From positions 3,411,081 through 3,475,080 of the forward strand of contig NZ_CP013859.1 of NCBI RefSeq assembly GCF_001513675.1: a stretch of DNA of 64,000 nucleotides, read 5' to 3'. This document shows, in pieces, positions 4,076 to 55,106 of this stretch (position 1 is the first letter of the stretch; each line of letters starts with the position of its first letter). The position numbers and the translations under genes were made by a program. The DNA is from Microbacterium sp. XT11. GTDB lineage: Bacteria; Actinomycetota; Actinomycetes; Actinomycetales; Microbacteriaceae. Under the pieces are notes generated by a model. The model was not told the origin of the DNA. It ran no database searches and saw only the letters and a list, made by a program, of their open reading frames with translations.

Positions 4076-4189
4076 CAGCCTCTCCCGCCTGTGCGACAAC
4101 GGGATCAGGCTAACCCATCCCCGGCTGCTCGGGGCGAAACTCCCGGTGAACGTGAGGGAGCGTGTCAGGAACGGGCGGGCGGATGCCGG

Positions 4190-5008
4190 TCAGCCGGCGT
4201 TCGCGGCGAGCCAGCCGATGGGCTCCACGAGTCCGCCGTTGACCTTGACCTCGAAGTGCAGGTGGTTGGCCGTGGAACGACCGGTGCTGCCGACGAAGCC
4301 GATGAGCTGACCCGGCGCAACCGTCTGCCCCACCTGCACCTGTCGCGAACCGTAGGTCATGTGACCGTAGGTGGTCTCGACGCGCTGTCCGCCAACGACG
4401 CCGTCGATCACGACGCCGACGCCGTAGCCGTAGTAGCTCTCCGACGAGACCCGGACGACGCCCGCAGTCGCGGCGTAGATCGGTGTGCCCTGCGGCGACA
4501 CCATGTCAGCACCGTTGTGGCCGCTGCCGAGTGTGCGCGAGACCCGGTACGAGCCCAGCGGCAGCGGGTAGCGCACCTCGCCGGAGCCGGGAGACACGAG
4601 GGCGTAGCTGCCGATGTTGAAGCTGCGCGAGGACGCCGACGCAGCCGAGGCCAGGGCAGCAGCTCGGGCCGCCGCGGCCTCTTCGGCCTTCTTCTTCGCG
4701 ATCTCGTCGGGCGTCGTCGCACTGAACGACCCCCTGTCGACCGGCGCCGCGGTGGCCTCGGAGGCCACGACGAGCGACTGGGCGTCGACGGCCGCGAGCT
4801 GCTGCACCGTCATCGGCGCGGCATCCGCGGGCTTCGTGGCGGCGTAGGCCGGAAGGGCCACGGCGGCGACGAGAGCGCCGACCGCGCCGAAGATGGCGAC
4901 GGATCGCAGAGGCTTCACGACCGACCGTGGAGCCGGCCGCGCCCCGCCTCGACGGGCGGGAACTCGATCTTCAGATGTCTTCGCGGTCGGTTCGATGTCT
5001 GCGGCCAA
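4190..5008 (-). CDS. M23 family metallopeptidase (LytM/VanX-type cell-wall hydrolase)
   Basis: Exported zinc endopeptidase that cuts peptidoglycan cross-bridges. About 272 aa from TTG 5008, chosen because AGGAGG lies 8 nt upstream. A cytoplasmic basic N terminus and one hydrophobic segment (SVAIFGAVGALVAAVALPAYA, about 33-53) form a signal/anchor. An Ala/Lys-rich coiled region spans about 95-120. The catalytic domain (about 145-272) has HNGADMVSPQG (first ligands), TTYGHMTYGS and NHLHFEVKVNG. Both HxH-type and GxxxD elements are present, so it should be active. It has a roughly 200-nt structured leader. Actinobacterial relatives are often controlled by leader RNAs. Confidence 0.85.
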   Translation of the reverse strand: MAADIEPTAKTSEDRVPARRGGARPAPRSVVKPLRSVAIFGAVGALVAAVALPAYAATKPADAAPMTVQQLAAVDAQSLVVASEATAAPVDRGSFSATTPDEIAKKKAEEAAAARAAALASAASASSRSFNIGSYALVSPGSGEVRYPLPLGSYRVSRTLGSGHNGADMVSPQGTPIYAATAGVVRVSSESYYGYGVGVVIDGVVGGQRVETTYGHMTYGSRQVQVGQTVAPGQLIGFVGSTGRSTANHLHFEVKVNGGLVEPIGWLAANAG

Positions 5009-49890: not shown

Positions 49891-50991
49891 ATGACCGTGA
49901 TCGCCCCTCAGTCCCCGCGGGTCGCCGTGCAGACCTCGCGTGCCACGCTGTCGTCCGGCCACCTGCCTCGCTGGGCCCCGTGGGCTCTGCTCGGCATCGC
50001 ACTGCTCGTCGGCGCCGCTCCGTTCGCGATGACCGCGGTGGCGTCCGGTTCGGAGTTCAACATCGCCGGCTCGCTCATCGTCGGCGCCCTCCTCTACCTC
50101 GTCATCGTCTACGTCACCTCGCGCATCGTCGAGGGGTCGCGCAAGGCCCTCGACCGCTTCGTCACCGGCATCGTCACCACCGCGTTCCTCATCGCGATGG
50201 TGCCGCTGGTGTCCGTGGGCTGGACGGTGGTCGCGAACGGCATCGCCCGTCTCGATCCGATGTTCTTCAACTCCTCGATGCGCGGGGTGCTCGGCGAGGG
50301 CGGCGGCGCCCTGCACGCGATCATGGGCACCCTCCTCGTCACGCTCGCGGCGACGCTCATCTCGGTGCCCATCGGCCTGATGACGGCCATCTACCTCGTC
50401 GAGTACGGACGGGGAACGCGCATGTCGCGCATCATCACGTTCCTCGTCGACGTCATGACCGGCATCCCGTCGATCGTCGCGGGACTGTTCGCCTACGCGG
50501 TCTTCGCGCTGATCTTCGGCCCCGGCGTGCGCATGGGCATCATGGGGTCCGTCGCCCTCTCCGTGCTGATGATCCCCGTCGTCGTCCGCTCCACCGAGGA
50601 GATGCTGCGGCTGGTGCCGAACGACCTCCGGGAGGCGTCGTACGCGCTCGGAGTGCCGAAGTGGCTCACCATCGTCAAAGTCGTGCTGCCAACGTCGATC
50701 GCCGGCATCACCACCGGCGTGATGCTCGCCATCTCGCGCGTGATCGGCGAGACCGCGCCGCTGCTGCTCACCGCAGGCTTCACCGACGCGATGAACTACA
50801 ACCTCTTCAGCGGCCGCATGCAGACCCTGCCGGTCTTCATCTACTCGCAGTACGCCTACCAGGGCATCCCCGCCGAGGCGTACGTCGACCGCGCCTGGGC
50901 CGCCGCCCTCACCCTCATCGTCATCGTCATGGTGCTGAACCTGGTCGCGCGCATCGTCGCGAAGGTGTTCGCGCCCCAGACCGGCCGCTGA
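49891..50991 (+). CDS. pstA: phosphate ABC permease PstA
   Basis: 366 aa, longer at the N terminus than E. coli PstA, with two extra hydrophobic segments ([23 protein letters not shown] and [17 protein letters not shown]) before the six-helix permease core. The EAA loop is [38 protein letters not shown] is the conserved helix. It is part of PstCAB, with pstB 29 nt downstream. Confidence 0.95.
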
Positions 50992-51020
50992 GCACCCAGC
51001 CCCTCAGAATAGGAATCCAC

Positions 51021-51800
51021 GTGTCCAAGAGCATCGAAGTCAACGACCTCAACGTCTACTACGGCGACTTCCTCGCCGTCGAGGGTGTCTCGCTCGACAT
51101 CGAGCCGCGCAGCGTCACCGCATTCATCGGCCCGTCGGGCTGCGGCAAGTCGACCTTCCTCCGCACGCTGAACCGCATGCACGAGGTGATCCCCGGCGCC
51201 CGCGTCGAGGGCCAGGTGCTGCTCGACGGCGACGACCTCTACGGGCCGACCGTCGACCCCGTGACCGTGCGCCGCCAGGTCGGCATGGTGTTCCAGCGTC
51301 CGAACCCCTTCCCGACCATGTCGATCCGTGAGAACGTGCTCGCCGGCGTGCGCCTGAACAACAAGCGCATCGCGAAGTCCGACGCCGACGCGCTCGTGGA
51401 GAAGTCCCTGCGGGGCGCGAACCTGTGGAACGAGGTCAAGGACCGCCTCGACAAGCCCGGCTCCGGCCTCTCGGGCGGACAGCAGCAGCGACTGTGCATC
51501 GCACGCGCCATCGCCGTGTCGCCCGACGTGCTGCTCATGGACGAGCCGTGCTCGGCCCTCGACCCGATCTCGACCTACGCGATCGAGGAGCTGATCGGCG
51601 AACTCAAGCAGGAGTACACGATCGTCATCGTCACCCACAACATGCAGCAGGCGAGCCGCGTGTCGGACAAGACCGCGTTCTTCAACATCGCCGGCACCGG
51701 AAAGCCCGGCAAGCTCATCGAGTACGACGACACCACGACGATCTTCACCACCCCTTCGGTGCAGGCCACCGAGGATTACGTCTCCGGACGCTTCGGGTAG
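51021..51800 (+). CDS. pstB: phosphate ABC ATPase PstB
   Basis: 259 aa. Walker [10 protein letters not shown] (about 34-42), signature [14 protein letters not shown], Walker [13 protein letters not shown] and H-loop VTHNMQQA. It powers the PstCA channel. GTG 51021 has AGGAA upstream; it is the last gene of pstSCAB. A G-rich tandem repeat starts directly after the stop codon. Confidence 0.95.
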
Positions 51801-51838
51801 GCCGGGCGGGGCGGCCGGGCGGGGCGGCCGGCGGGGCG
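51801..51838 (+). repeat. G-rich 13-bp tandem repeat after pstB
   Basis: GCCGGGCGGGGCG occurs at 51801 and 51814, with a shortened third copy at 51827. The G runs satisfy a simple G-quadruplex pattern on the plus strand. The rest of 51839-52169 holds only palindrome A and no gene that I can support. Confidence 0.7.
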
Positions 51839-51857
51839 GCCCGGGCGCGCCGGCCCC

Positions 51858-51945
51858 GTGCGAAAAGTCGGAGTTTCGTCGCGACACGCCGACGCCGGAT
51901 GCCGCGTCGCGGCGTGTCGACGCGAGACTCCGACCTTTCGCGCAC
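51858..51945. repeat. 79-bp palindromic element, copy A
   Basis: Core 51862-51940. Outer arms are GTCGGAGT / ACTCCGAC, inner arms CGACACGCCG / CGGCGTGTCG, flanked by A- and T-runs and by GTGCG...CGCAC. Copy B at 53033 has the same length and orientation, with both arms kept. The two copies bracket the DUF559 gene. Confidence 0.85.
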
Positions 51946-52169
51946 GCGGACACCGGCCGCGCGCACACCTGGCACCCCGGGGTGCGCACGCGGACGGAGC
52001 CCGTGCGCTCGCGGCCGGACCCCGCGCGCGCCAGGACCGGTCCGGTTCGCGGCCGGCCGGCGAGCGACTCGTCCTGCACAAACGCGCGGGCGGGCGAGTT
52101 CTCCCCCGCAGCCGTGGTTGAGTGCCTGCACGAGCACGAACGGATGCGGCGACCCGCCAGACTCCTGGC

Positions 52170-53015
52170 ATGTCTTTCCGTTCCGCCGCCGTCGCCCTGA
52201 GCCACATGGGCGGCATGGCCAGGACCAGGGAGCTTCTCACGCTCGGTGTGACCGCGAGAGAACTGCGTCGCGCCGTGCGCGCGGGCGAGATCGTGCGACC
52301 GCGCCAGGGGCTGTACGCGTTGCCCGATACGGCACTCGATCACCTCCACGCAGCCGAGCACGGGGGCGTGCCGGCCGCGGCATCCGCTGCTCGTCTCCAC
52401 GGGCTCTGGGTGCTCGACGACGAGACCGTCCACGTGTGGATGGGGCCGGGAGGGCGGCGGTTGAGTGACTGTCGCTCCTGTTGCGTCCACTGGTCGGAGG
52501 GGACCGTATCCGCCGGTCGGTTGCCATCGGTGCCGCGAGCCCTGCTGCAGCTCGCGCAGTGCGCCGGCGAGGAGCCGTTCTTCGCGGCGCTCGAGTCCGC
52601 GCTACGCCAAGGTCTGATCGATGCCGCTGGACTCCGCTGGCTGCGCGACGCGCTCCCCCGCCGGTGGCAGTGGCTCGTGGACTTCGCGAGATCTGATGCG
52701 GACAGCGGGCTGGAGTCGCTGGTGCGGCTCCGGCTGCACCGCCGCGGCATCGCGGTTGCGACGCAGGTGGTCGTATGCGGCACAGGCAGAGTCGATCTGC
52801 TCATCGGCGACCGTCTGCTCATCGAGATCGACGGCAAGGAGAATCACGCCGGACCGATGCATCGCCACAAAGACCTGGTGCGCGACGCCATGTCGGCCAT
52901 CTGGGGCTACGAGACGCTCCGGTTCGACTTCGCGATGGTGATCCATGAGTGGGACCTCGTGGAAGACGCGATCATCGCGAAGATCACGGCAGGAGCGCAC
53001 CTGTGGCCGCGATGA
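52170..53015 (+). CDS. DUF559 nuclease-like protein with AbiEi-type N terminus
   Basis: About 281 aa. The N-terminal winged-helix-like domain (GGMARTRELLTLGVTARELRRAVRAGEIVRPRQGLYAL) matches AbiEi-type antitoxin/regulator domains. The C-terminal DUF559 domain (about 195-280) resembles Vsr/PD-(D/E)XK nucleases, with VDLLIGDRLLIEIDGKENH giving Asp, Glu and the DGxxxH tail. No AbiEii toxin is adjacent. The start is uncertain (ATG 52170, or ATG 52206). The gene is exactly framed by two copies of a palindromic repeat, so a mobile or repeat-associated role is possible. Confidence 0.75.
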   Translation: MSFRSAAVALSHMGGMARTRELLTLGVTARELRRAVRAGEIVRPRQGLYALPDTALDHLHAAEHGGVPAAASAARLHGLWVLDDETVHVWMGPGGRRLSDCRSCCVHWSEGTVSAGRLPSVPRALLQLAQCAGEEPFFAALESALRQGLIDAAGLRWLRDALPRRWQWLVDFARSDADSGLESLVRLRLHRRGIAVATQVVVCGTGRVDLLIGDRLLIEIDGKENHAGPMHRHKDLVRDAMSAIWGYETLRFDFAMVIHEWDLVEDAIIAKITAGAHLWPR

Positions 53016-53032
53016 CTCCTTCCCGGCGGAAC

Positions 53033-53111
53033 GAAAGGTCGGACTTCCCGCGCGACACGCCGGCGTCTGACGCCGTTCGCCGGCGTGTCGCTTCGAGACT
53101 CCGACGTTTGG
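53033..53111. repeat. 79-bp palindromic element, copy B
   Basis: Same length and direction as copy A, roughly three-quarters identical by eye. Inner arms CGACACGCCG / CGGCGTGTCG are unchanged; the left outer arm has GTCGGACT where copy A has GTCGGAGT. It lies 18 nt behind the DUF559 stop and could also act as its terminator. Confidence 0.85.
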
Positions 53112-53127
53112 TGCGCGTACCCCGAGC

Positions 53128-53251
53128 GAGGGAACCGCCCGCGAACGTGGCCCGCGCGAGGGAACCGCCCGCGAGGGAACCGCCCGCGAACGTGGCGCGC
53201 GCCACGGAATCACCCGCGAACGCGGCGCCCGCCCGAACGCGGCGCCCGCGC
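53128..53251. repeat. 30-bp tandem repeat
   Basis: A unit starting GAGGGAACCGCCCGCGAACG recurs at 53128, 53158 (half unit), 53173, 53203 (diverged) and 53233 (partial). It lies between palindrome B and the 3' end of the pabC-like gene, with no reading frame I can support. All units are contiguous with no spacers. Confidence 0.8.
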
Positions 53252-53264
53252 GAGGGCGCCGGCC

Positions 53265-54149
53265 CTAGTCTCGCGGCGAGAGCAGGTATCGGTTCAGGTC
53301 TGCGGTGAGCTCCGCGTCGACCGGCAGCGGCGTGCCGTCGATGGCCGTGATGGGAGCGGCGAGACGCACGCTCGACACCAGCCATGCGGCATCCGCCCGC
53401 GCCAGATCGGATGCCGGAATCGTCTCGTACCCTGCGTCGAAACCACGGCCGGAGAGGTGCTCATAGACGCTCAGCTGCGTCGTGCCGTGCAGGATGCCGC
53501 CGTTGGGCGCCGGGGTGACGAATCGCCCGTCCAGCCGGAGGATGAGCGACGCTGTCGGCGCTTCGAGCACGAAACCGTCGGTCGTGACGAACACGGCGTC
53601 GTCCGCGCCGCGGCGGTGGGCCTCTCGGATCGCCGCCATGTTCACGGCGTACGACAGCGTCTTGGCGCCCAGCAGGAGCCAGGGAGCGCGCTCGGCCGCG
53701 CCGAGGTCGTACCCCCGGTCGAGCGTGACGACGCTGACCCCGCGCGTCCGTGCTGCAGAGAAGTCGGCCGCCGGAGCGGTCGTCACCCACGCGGTCGGTG
53801 TAGGACCGTGCTCGACCCCACGGCTGAGGATCAGCTTGATGACAGCCTCTCCCTCGCCGCACAGCGCTGCCGCCGCCTGCACGGCCTGCCGCCACTGCTC
53901 CAGGTTGGGCTGCGGGAGGTCGCACAGTCGTGCCGAGTGGGCTAGCCGCTCCAGATGCGGCACGACCTCCTGCGCATGGCCGTCGATCACGCCGATGGAC
54001 TCGAACACGCCGTCGCCGCGCTGTGTGCTCAGCTCACCGACACTCAACGCCGGGGCGGTGGCGTCCACCTCGGTGAAGGTGTCGGCGAAGTCGTCGCGCG
54101 TCTCGTCGGCGGGCACGGGATCGATCATCAGAGCGGAGCGCCTGGTCAT
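53265..54149 (-). CDS. aminotransferase class IV (aminodeoxychorismate lyase-like)
   Basis: 294-aa PLP enzyme of fold type IV, closest to PabC (4-amino-4-deoxychorismate to p-aminobenzoate plus pyruvate, for folate). It has RGDGVFESIGVIDG, the Schiff-base lysine in LLLGAKTLSYAVNMAA, and TTDGFVLEAPTASLILRL. D-amino-acid or branched-chain transaminase functions cannot be excluded. TAGGCT (complement of 54156-54161) 6 nt before ATG makes it leaderless. Mycobacteria also keep a pabC-like gene near ygfZ/FABP/glnR. Confidence 0.82.
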   Translation of the reverse strand: MTRRSALMIDPVPADETRDDFADTFTEVDATAPALSVGELSTQRGDGVFESIGVIDGHAQEVVPHLERLAHSARLCDLPQPNLEQWRQAVQAAAALCGEGEAVIKLILSRGVEHGPTPTAWVTTAPAADFSAARTRGVSVVTLDRGYDLGAAERAPWLLLGAKTLSYAVNMAAIREAHRRGADDAVFVTTDGFVLEAPTASLILRLDGRFVTPAPNGGILHGTTQLSVYEHLSGRGFDAGYETIPASDLARADAAWLVSSVRLAAPITAIDGTPLPVDAELTADLNRYLLSPRD

Positions 54150-54204
54150 GAGTTGAGCCTAGACGCCGGGGAATAGCCAGGGCGGTATCGCGTTACACTG
54201 GAGT

Positions 54205-54284
54205 GGCCGGGCCGCATAACCCCGGGCTCCAACTTCTGCCGCTGCGAGCGGCCTTCCGCCGAGAGGCGTTCTTGCGGCCCGGTC
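54205..54284 (+). ncRNA. candidate structured RNA with three-way junction
   Basis: P1 pairs GGCCGGGCCGCA (54205-54216) with TGCGGCCCGGTC (54273-54284), 12 bp with one G-U. P2 is GCCGCT-GCG-AGCGGC (54238-54252). P3 is CGCC-GAGA-GGCG (54257-54268) with a GNRA loop. A -10-like TACACT (54194-54199) ends 5 nt before P1, so transcription should begin at its foot. No protein gene follows on this strand, so it would be a free RNA. It lacks the GGAAG/AGCAG core of SRP RNA. No class is recognised. Confidence 0.5.
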
Positions 54285-54365
54285 TTCTCGTACCCGGGCG
54301 TCCACGACGGTGCACAACGGCTCGGCGCACCGCTCCACCCCGCCGAACCCGGCAGCGCCCCGGAC

Positions 54366-54998
54366 TCAGGCCAGCGCATCCATGCGCCACAGCGCTGCGG
54401 CGGCTGTGAGGTCCTGCGCGTAGCTGCTGAGGCGCAGAGCACGGGTGGTGAGGTCGCTCGCGCGGGAGGGCTCCGTCGCCTCGTAATCGTCGGCGGTGTG
54501 CGTGGCGCCCGACGACTGCACGCGGCAGAACGCGGCGGCGCGGTCGAGGGCGACGGCGAAGTCTCCACGGAACGCTCCGCGCAGGATCGTGTCGATCAAG
54601 TCAACGATCTCGTCGGGATTCGCCGGCACCGGCGCACCTGCGATCAGCGCATCCGCCGAGCTCAATTCGACCCGTCCGCGCTCGTAGAGCAGCGCGGCCG
54701 TGTGGGGATCGGCATGGATGGCCAGCTGCAGCAGGTACAGCCGCCACAGCGCCCCCGGCAGCGTGCGCGACGGCGCCTTCGACCACAGCTCCGCGATCTC
54801 GTCGATGCCGTGCTCTGCCGTGTACGCCACAAGCCGGTCCGCGCTCACGCCGCTCTCGTCCGCGCGCACCCGAGTGAGCAGAGCGGATGCTGTGGCATGC
54901 GCGATGCGCGTCTCCTCGGCGGGGTCATGGCTGCCGACGATGTTGTCGAAGGCGCTGGTGGGACGACGCACGGGCCGATGATGATGCTGCTCGGGCAT
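54366..54998 (-). CDS. conserved actinobacterial protein of unknown function
   Basis: 210-aa mostly helical protein. A basic start (MPEQHHHRPVRRPTSAFDNIVG) is followed by helices such as TASALLTRVRADESGVSADRLVAYTAEHGIDEIAELWSKAP and ALWRLYLLQLAIHADPHTAALLYERGR. No catalytic motif or TM segment is visible. TACCCT (complement of 55005-55010) exactly 6 nt before ATG 54998 sets the start and predicts a leaderless mRNA. It is divergent from tRNA-Lys. Confidence 0.7.
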   Translation of the reverse strand: MPEQHHHRPVRRPTSAFDNIVGSHDPAEETRIAHATASALLTRVRADESGVSADRLVAYTAEHGIDEIAELWSKAPSRTLPGALWRLYLLQLAIHADPHTAALLYERGRVELSSADALIAGAPVPANPDEIVDLIDTILRGAFRGDFAVALDRAAAFCRVQSSGATHTADDYEATEPSRASDLTTRALRLSSYAQDLTAAAALWRMDALA

Positions 54999-55106
54999 CA
55001 CACCAGGGTACGCGCGTTCGGCCGAGGCGGATCGCTGCCGCCGGTTCATCCGCCGGCGATGCGATGTCATCTCCGCCCCTCCGTCGCGCCGTAGACTGGA
55101 AGGCAC

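Follow-up and report, generated by a model that had tools for sequence, protein, structure and literature searches.

Between two copies of an 80-nt palindrome, the genome of Microbacterium sp. XT11 carries a gene for a protein that is predicted to join an AbiEi antitoxin fold to a nuclease fold of the I-Bth0305I/Vsr type. We consider it probable, if well short of certain, that this cassette represents a single unit of a REP/RAYT-like system whose enzyme is of another kind, consisting of an AbiEi-type module and a Vsr/EDxHD nuclease. Many homologous genes are bracketed by palindromes whose arms match the protein, repeat and cognate gene co-occur, empty sites exist, and cassettes have been exchanged at one locus; with the predicted folds, the whole looks like an undescribed self-spreading DNA system. 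We infer that the protein binds and cuts the palindrome and drives its spread.

A gene between two palindromes

The window (the entire stretch of 64,000 nt that was analysed) lies at the end of the host genome, which is a single contig of 3,475,315 bases. The features of the locus are as follows.

51021..51800, + strand: left neighbour, ABC transporter ATPase (Pfam ABC_tran); left edge of the cassette locus; same neighbour in other genomes
51861..51940, no strand: palindrome copy A (family 1), 80 nt; outer arms CGAAAAGTCGGA/TCCGACCTTTCG, inner arms CGACACGCCG/CGGCGTGTCG
52170..53015, + strand: gene for the AbiEi-like and Vsr/EDxHD-like (predicted) nuclease, 281 aa; alternative GTG start at 52122
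53032..53111, no strand: palindrome copy B (family 1), 80 nt; begins 17 nt past the stop codon of the nuclease gene
53265..54149, − strand: right neighbour, aminotransferase class IV (Pfam Aminotran_4); right edge of the cassette locus; same neighbour in other genomes

We take the left-neighbour ATPase to be PstB, and the right-neighbour aminotransferase is presumably ADCL. Each palindrome consists of two arm pairs, two 9-nt spacers and an 18-nt loop. As reported in a preliminary description of this DNA, the inner arms (CGACACGCCG/CGGCGTGTCG) are the same in A and B, and the outer arms, CGAAAnGTCGGA/TCCGACnTTTCG in both (the end of B reads TTTGG), are near-identical between the copies. The repeats that it had seen as a pair around one gene stand out from the rest of the window, with A and B identical at 61/80 positions (76%) in direct comparison versus 41/80 for the next-best ungapped 80-mer. 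It had placed 79-bp copies at 51862-51940 and 53033-53111; both are present, but they measured 80 nt, from 51861 and 53032. Their equal length stands, whereas their same orientation is a weak statement, because each copy is nearly palindromic (self-complementarity, 56/80; inverted comparison of A with B, 55/80). No Rfam match at the gathering threshold was obtained for window positions 50000-55000. Immediately past copy B, at 53119-53257, GGGAACCGCCCGCG-type repeats were observed at 15- and 30-nt spacing.

The encoded protein

Pfam analysis of the 281-aa protein gave matches to AbiEi_4 (9.4e-11) and DUF559 (7e-5), both over the cut-off, in agreement with the earlier assignment of a single DUF559 gene between the copies; a match to MTES_1575 (5.5e-5) was under its cut-off. 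PADLOC also returned an AbiEi match, NCBIfam contained no family for the protein, and PHROGs gave weak matches alone, of unknown function. Among 126 homologues, DUF559 was detected in 121 and AbiEi_4 in 98 (E<=0.001). In an AlphaFold2 model (mean pLDDT 96), residues 1-174 resembled the AbiEi antitoxin 6y8q (Foldseek E 2.8e-6; VIA Z 7.8, rmsd 4.3, 173 aligned), and residues 179-278 of the same predicted model resembled the catalytic domain of I-Bth0305I, 3r3p (Z 9.8, rmsd 2.5, 96 aligned), as well as 3hrl (Z 9.2) and Vsr, 1vsr (Z 7.9). The remaining structure matches were mostly winged helices covering residues 1-54. The protein is accordingly modelled as a predicted AbiEi antitoxin fold (1-174) joined to a predicted I-Bth0305I/Vsr nuclease fold (178-278). 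Residues E182, D209, D221 and H226, which are invariant in the 126 homologues, are assumed to be catalytic.

The closest named homologue, among the best 80 of 225 loci, was 70% identical and belonged to M. hydrocarbonoxydans SA35. A phage or plasmid origin was rejected: no relative was found in IMG/VR, and matches at E<=1e-5, all with identity below 60%, were limited to two among 50,697 phage records and four among 72,556 plasmids.

Family-1 copies throughout the host genome

A search of the host genome with copy A gave at least 60 matches (E<=1; both orientations and short partial matches, with 40 of 136 candidates scored), and a fuzzy scan of the retrieved stretches identified 24 full elements, A and B among them, distributed over 15 sites. 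The element is thus not confined to this locus, and the nuclease gene occupies 1 of the 15 host sites; both counts had been proposed as checks in the preliminary description. A pattern for the conserved half-element matched the whole host genome 24 times on the + strand and 21 times on the − strand; the reversed pattern gave no match in the same genome.

An alignment of 22 of the 24 copies (the near-duplicates L012:4650 and L020:4175 were excluded) showed that 93.9% of outer-arm cells and 96.8% of inner-arm cells are paired, against 53.5% of spacer cells. Arms were constant and spacers variable also at sites common to the host and the congeneric genome G187. In this alignment, whole-structure pairing and covariation were not above shuffles, because the arms are nearly invariant, and an RNA-structure reading was rejected on this result. 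Four half-sites of fixed sequence are conserved, so DNA recognition is a better fit to the element than is folding as RNA.

Some of the copies have arisen by local duplication, 137-267 nt from start to start, partly with their flanks included. According to a crude gene caller, the 22 copies other than A and B, which are solo copies, lie between convergent genes in 13 cases, between co-directional genes in nine and between divergent genes in none, and one overlaps a predicted ORF. When 0.04-2.05 Mb and 2.05-3.46 Mb of the host genome were compared, the solo family-1 copies all fell in one part, which also held most family-2 matches; the listed G187 copies were similarly skewed, and the skew perhaps reflects one replichore. 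Next to the solo copy found in the host alone (L021, ~4140-4260), a ~28-nt unit (TTTCAGACGTCGCGGCGCGGGTAGGCCC) is arranged in tandem, starting inside the right arm of the palindrome.

Bracketing of homologous genes

Using an alignment of 29 homologues as query, we assembled the best 80 of 225 named stretches encoding relatives, from Microbacterium, Agromyces and a few unclassified relatives, plus the window (81 in all); L068, L085 and L125 were dropped for short flanks, leaving 78 loci. An exact-word bracket test passed 31/78 loci and missed the window itself. Mismatches were therefore allowed, the tolerant test being chosen after that result, and controls were run under identical settings. 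A locus was scored as bracketed when 11-nt outer arms matched on both sides with <=4 or <=6 mismatches over the four arms. Among the 78 loci, which are not independent because close strains are included, 44 were bracketed at <=4 and 57 at <=6 mismatches. The corresponding values were 16/766 and 43/766 for swapped upstream/downstream pairs, and 0/448 and 2/448 for shifted windows in the same loci; of the remaining genes that a crude caller placed in these loci at lengths of 450-1800 nt, 7/526 passed. Three of these seven genes (in L100, L114 and L134) passed with arms of the locus's own class, because a further palindrome of that class sits beyond the next gene, here the aminotransferase gene. 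The other 21 of the 78 loci failed the test; the distance it permits between arms, 38-66 nt, is that of family 1, and other subtypes may escape it.

Many genes of this family in Microbacterium and related bacteria thus lie between two copies of a type-specific palindrome. The prospect raised in the preliminary description, that the element might be an independent terminator without any link to DUF559 genes, is contradicted by these frequencies (57/78 versus 2/448 and 7/526). The upstream palindrome starts 139-215 nt ahead of the start codon in 46/57 bracketed loci (306 nt in the window), and the downstream one is <=80 nt from the stop codon in 43/57. The inner-arm word (<=1 mismatch) occurs in both elements of 37/57 loci, in one element of 3/57 and in neither of 17/57, and is reversed in one group of bracketed loci. 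In wider samples, from which ORFs <240 aa were excluded, bracketing was found at 17/30 and 26/37 loci with genes of >=42% identity (partly overlapping the named set), at 6/8 paralogues of 32-41% identity, and at 10/25 loci of a class-wide sample, including 6/18 outside the own family. Bracketing was seen in five or more families within a single class.

Outer arms and the AbiEi-like part

Single linkage grouped the 57 bracketed loci into 20 arm classes. The outer arm varies by protein lineage and the inner arm is common to most classes. The host genome itself provides an example in a second gene, C1:3296590, 51% identical to the first: the palindromes on its two sides have an outer arm of their own (TTTGTCGGGAGG), and each contains the inner-arm word on a single side. 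Across the 57 loci, whose relatedness is incompletely removed in these tests, arm similarity correlated with identity in residues 1-174 (Mantel 0.34) and with identity in the nuclease (0.17). The partial Mantel value for the N-terminal part given the nuclease was 0.30 (p 0.002, 499 permutations), versus 0.04 (p 0.24) for the nuclease given the N-terminal part. This sequence comparison points to the AbiEi-like part as the one that reads the outer arm.

Co-occurrence of repeat and cognate gene

The family-1 half-element was found in 8 of 366 congeneric genomes, host included, with the following numbers of matches on the two strands.

Host: 24+21
G163: 7+8
G187: 6+8
G186: 6+4
G117: 4+4
G014: 0+3
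G234: 1
G325: 1

A gene >=70% identical to that of the window was found in at least three of the 366 genomes (host; G187, 72%; G163, 70%; <=6 candidates scored per genome), and these three are the highest in repeat matches. The copies in G117 read AAATGTCGGA, which is the arm that brackets the genome's own 52% identical gene (L047). G234 has one half-element match and a 64% identical gene with another arm (AAACACGGACG); in G325, with one match, no gene of >50% identity was found. Repeat and cognate gene therefore co-occur in family 1, to which this comparison applies, with exceptions: besides G234 and G325, G186 holds copies and no gene of >=70% identity was found in it, and G014 has three near-full solo copies and no cognate gene was found. 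A MerR-family gene (MerR_1, 3.6e-17) also lies between family-1 palindromes, with an extra half copy adjoining one of them, at ~73.0-74.2 kb of G163:C7 (L293, 2527-3680); it is possibly non-cognate cargo or a chance pair.

Empty sites and exchange of cassettes

Empty sites, the comparison of which had been suggested in the preliminary description, were found at three places. Where G187 and G186 could be aligned, their identity is mostly 98-99%. Between the two neighbours, G187 has palindrome, gene and palindrome (the copies differ at 2/81 positions); G186 has at the same locus a single palindrome carrying the outer flank of each G187 copy, and the gene is absent. Because the host and G163 also have the gene there, the simplest interpretation is that the two copies recombined in G186 and the gene was lost. 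The solo copy at 1,739,617 is present in the host and G187. In eight relatives of similar or greater divergence it is absent, and the intergenic stretch is ~290-320 nt shorter than in the host; the 29 relatives examined at this site comprised these eight with a clean short gap, seven with a longer gap and 14 in which the left neighbour was not found. The insert is GC-rich and exceeds the palindrome in length, and no clear target duplication was seen at it. For the solo copy at 2,047,172, a pattern search with <=3 substitutions gave no counterpart in any of 11 relatives, among them G187, G186 and G163, so that at least one copy was apparently gained in the host lineage. Mapped solo sites are common to G186 and G187 in six cases and to the host and G187 in four. 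Solo copies appear to spread slowly and to be stably inherited. At L011, the gene was present in 2/11 genomes and no usable orthologous site was available.

The same two neighbours enclose the gene in 30 loci, the window included, and their identity weakly predicts that of the gene (Spearman 0.19, 435 pairs). In L100 and L096 the neighbours are 97.6% identical, the genes 57%, and the palindromes are different; upstream in L096, an apparent half of an L100-type palindrome was seen by eye at the end of the homology. Between L093 and the host, neighbour identity is 92% and gene identity 48%; L093 belongs to another arm class, and strong homology stops ahead of the upstream palindromes and returns past the downstream ones. 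Gene and both palindromes are thus replaced jointly at this locus, between close relatives, and ordinary homologous recombination between relatives could account for the swapping. In L076, L119 and L130 the gene lies beyond the aminotransferase gene, on its opposite side, and the usual neighbours are then 18-138 nt apart.

Proposed mechanism and alternative explanations

Since the outer arm is lineage-specific and the inner arm common to most classes, we consider it most likely that the conserved half-sites of each palindrome are bound by the AbiEi part of the cognate protein, probably in dimeric form. The nuclease would then nick or cut at the palindrome, in duplex or extruded hairpin DNA. 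Repair off the bracketed cassette could copy the gene into palindromes and could also spread gene-free palindromes, giving solo copies in intergenic DNA, and recombination of the two flanking copies would delete the gene and leave a solo palindrome. Cells could hardly tolerate duplex cuts at two dozen places in the chromosome, and the likely solution is a nick, a hairpin substrate or tight control. Some results run against this scheme: free homing would be expected to place the gene at more than 1/15 host sites; mapped solo copies are mostly stable; G186 and G014 hold copies without the cognate gene; 21/78 loci failed the bracket test; and 17/57 bracketed loci lack the inner-arm word in both elements. 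A more far-reaching version is that AbiEi-Vsr nucleases are a new class of selfish DNA that homes cassette-wise into its own bipartite palindromes and leaves solo copies, with dozens of mutually orthogonal pairs across the high-GC class, the REP/RAYT lifestyle having been invented independently by an enzyme of the homing-endonuclease type; we put this forward tentatively, at slightly below even chances.

The protein might instead be an AbiEi-like repressor engaged in autoregulation only, with the palindromes as operators; the downstream and dispersed copies would be surplus operators or would define a regulon, and the nuclease would act elsewhere. Inverted repeats of 23 bp in their own promoters are the binding sites of AbiEi and its homologue Rv2827c (PMC7319586, available text), and the regular position of the upstream palindrome (139-215 nt before the start codon in 46/57; 306 nt in the window) would suit an operator. 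A matching palindrome, however, is also present downstream of the gene, none of the 22 host solo copies lies between divergent genes by the crude gene call, and insertions found in the host or one clade alone require a spreading process; we regard pure autoregulation as unlikely. A housekeeping role, in which the nuclease processes cruciforms or mismatches at palindromes, or performs VSP-like repair, and the host retains both, would be in keeping with the predicted Vsr-like fold and with the fixed arms and varying spacers, also between host and G187 at common sites; a Caulobacter DUF559 protein, VsrA, moreover accounts for the SOS response of cells that lack a solitary cytosine methylase, which shows that such a protein can provoke this response in vivo (PMC12907096, available text). 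Patchy presence (the class gene in at least 3/366 genomes, <=6 candidates scored per genome), clean gene loss in G186, the many arm classes and replacement at one locus make such a role rather improbable.

That another transposase or recombinase moves the palindromes passively, with the nuclease gene as cargo, would fit the MerR-family gene in G163, which likewise lies between family-1 palindromes, but arm class tracks the AbiEi half of the nuclease protein and the PF01797 search found no Y1 transposase in the host genome, so that we hold it very unlikely. Least credible of all, and highly improbable in our judgement, is that the palindromes are transcription terminators with a gene between them by accident. 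They are strong dyads and frequently lie 3' of genes, yet a scan for a GC stem plus T run found no site at A or B; the preliminary description had remarked that plain terminators would have no sequence in common. Their arms are fixed in sequence (93.9% and 96.8% paired) while the spacers pair poorly (53.5%), and they agree across each gene and vary between lineages; at the 2,047,172 site, at least four element-free relatives show by eye an ordinary hairpin-plus-T terminator. For A and B themselves, the terminator reading was rejected on the missing site and the sequence-fixed arms.

Relation to known systems

In REP/RAYT, a TnpA_REP gene is flanked by two cognate palindromes with dispersed extragenic copies in several classes, protein and palindrome correspond, copies are abundant mainly where the cognate gene is present, and a RAYT gene at a fixed position diverges faster than its neighbours (PMC2817692, available text). 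All of these traits have counterparts in the AbiEi-Vsr system. It differs in its enzyme, which is predicted to be AbiEi plus a Vsr/EDxHD-like nuclease and not a Y1 transposase, in its palindrome, which is ~80 nt with mostly two arm pairs, and in its 24 copies, REPs usually exceeding 100 per genome (PMC2817692, available text). The Y1 transposase profile PF01797 had no match in the host genome at E<=1, whereas 10/14 control genomes matched; REP/RAYT membership was rejected on this result, and the system lies outside REP/RAYT because the Y1 transposase is absent. The likeness to REP/RAYT with another nuclease class, drawn in the preliminary description, holds in architecture and co-occurrence. 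Dispersed palindromic repeats without a RAYT are a known puzzle: CGTC-tagged REPs 'apparently lack a dedicated transposase' and are similar in this respect, but they measure 20-40 bp and are reported from other phyla, and the available text of the source mentions no gene association (PMC3733652). A second, unrelated enzyme family is now tied to palindromic repeats, a link between AbiEi/DUF559 proteins and such repeats for which no report was found in the full-text literature searched, which contains few subscription papers. It suggests a role for proteins named just AbiEi-family antitoxin or DUF559, and puts ~20 natural protein-DNA pairs on offer, with the DNA target readable off the gene flanks.

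The AbiE type IV toxin-antitoxin system is similar in that residues 1-174 match the AbiEi fold (6y8q, predicted model) and AbiEi binds inverted repeats (PMC7319586, available text). Unlike in AbiE, the AbiEi part is fused to a nuclease, and the repeats not only flank the gene but are also found at other genomic sites. No adjacent AbiEii (DUF1814) gene is present in the window, where the neighbours are ABC_tran and Aminotran_4 genes, as in all 30 loci; the AAA_21 match of the left gene, whose description mentions AbiEii, was taken as a generic ATPase domain. With I-Bth0305I (3r3p) and Vsr (1vsr) the protein shares its predicted nuclease fold (Z 9.8 and 7.9), but the gene is not intronic, its presumed target flanks it on both sides and it has an AbiEi DNA-binding half. 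I-Bth0305I is reported to dimerise on a target that is almost 60 bp long (PMC3943268, available text), and, as for this homing endonuclease, gene-plus and gene-minus alleles of one site were found here.
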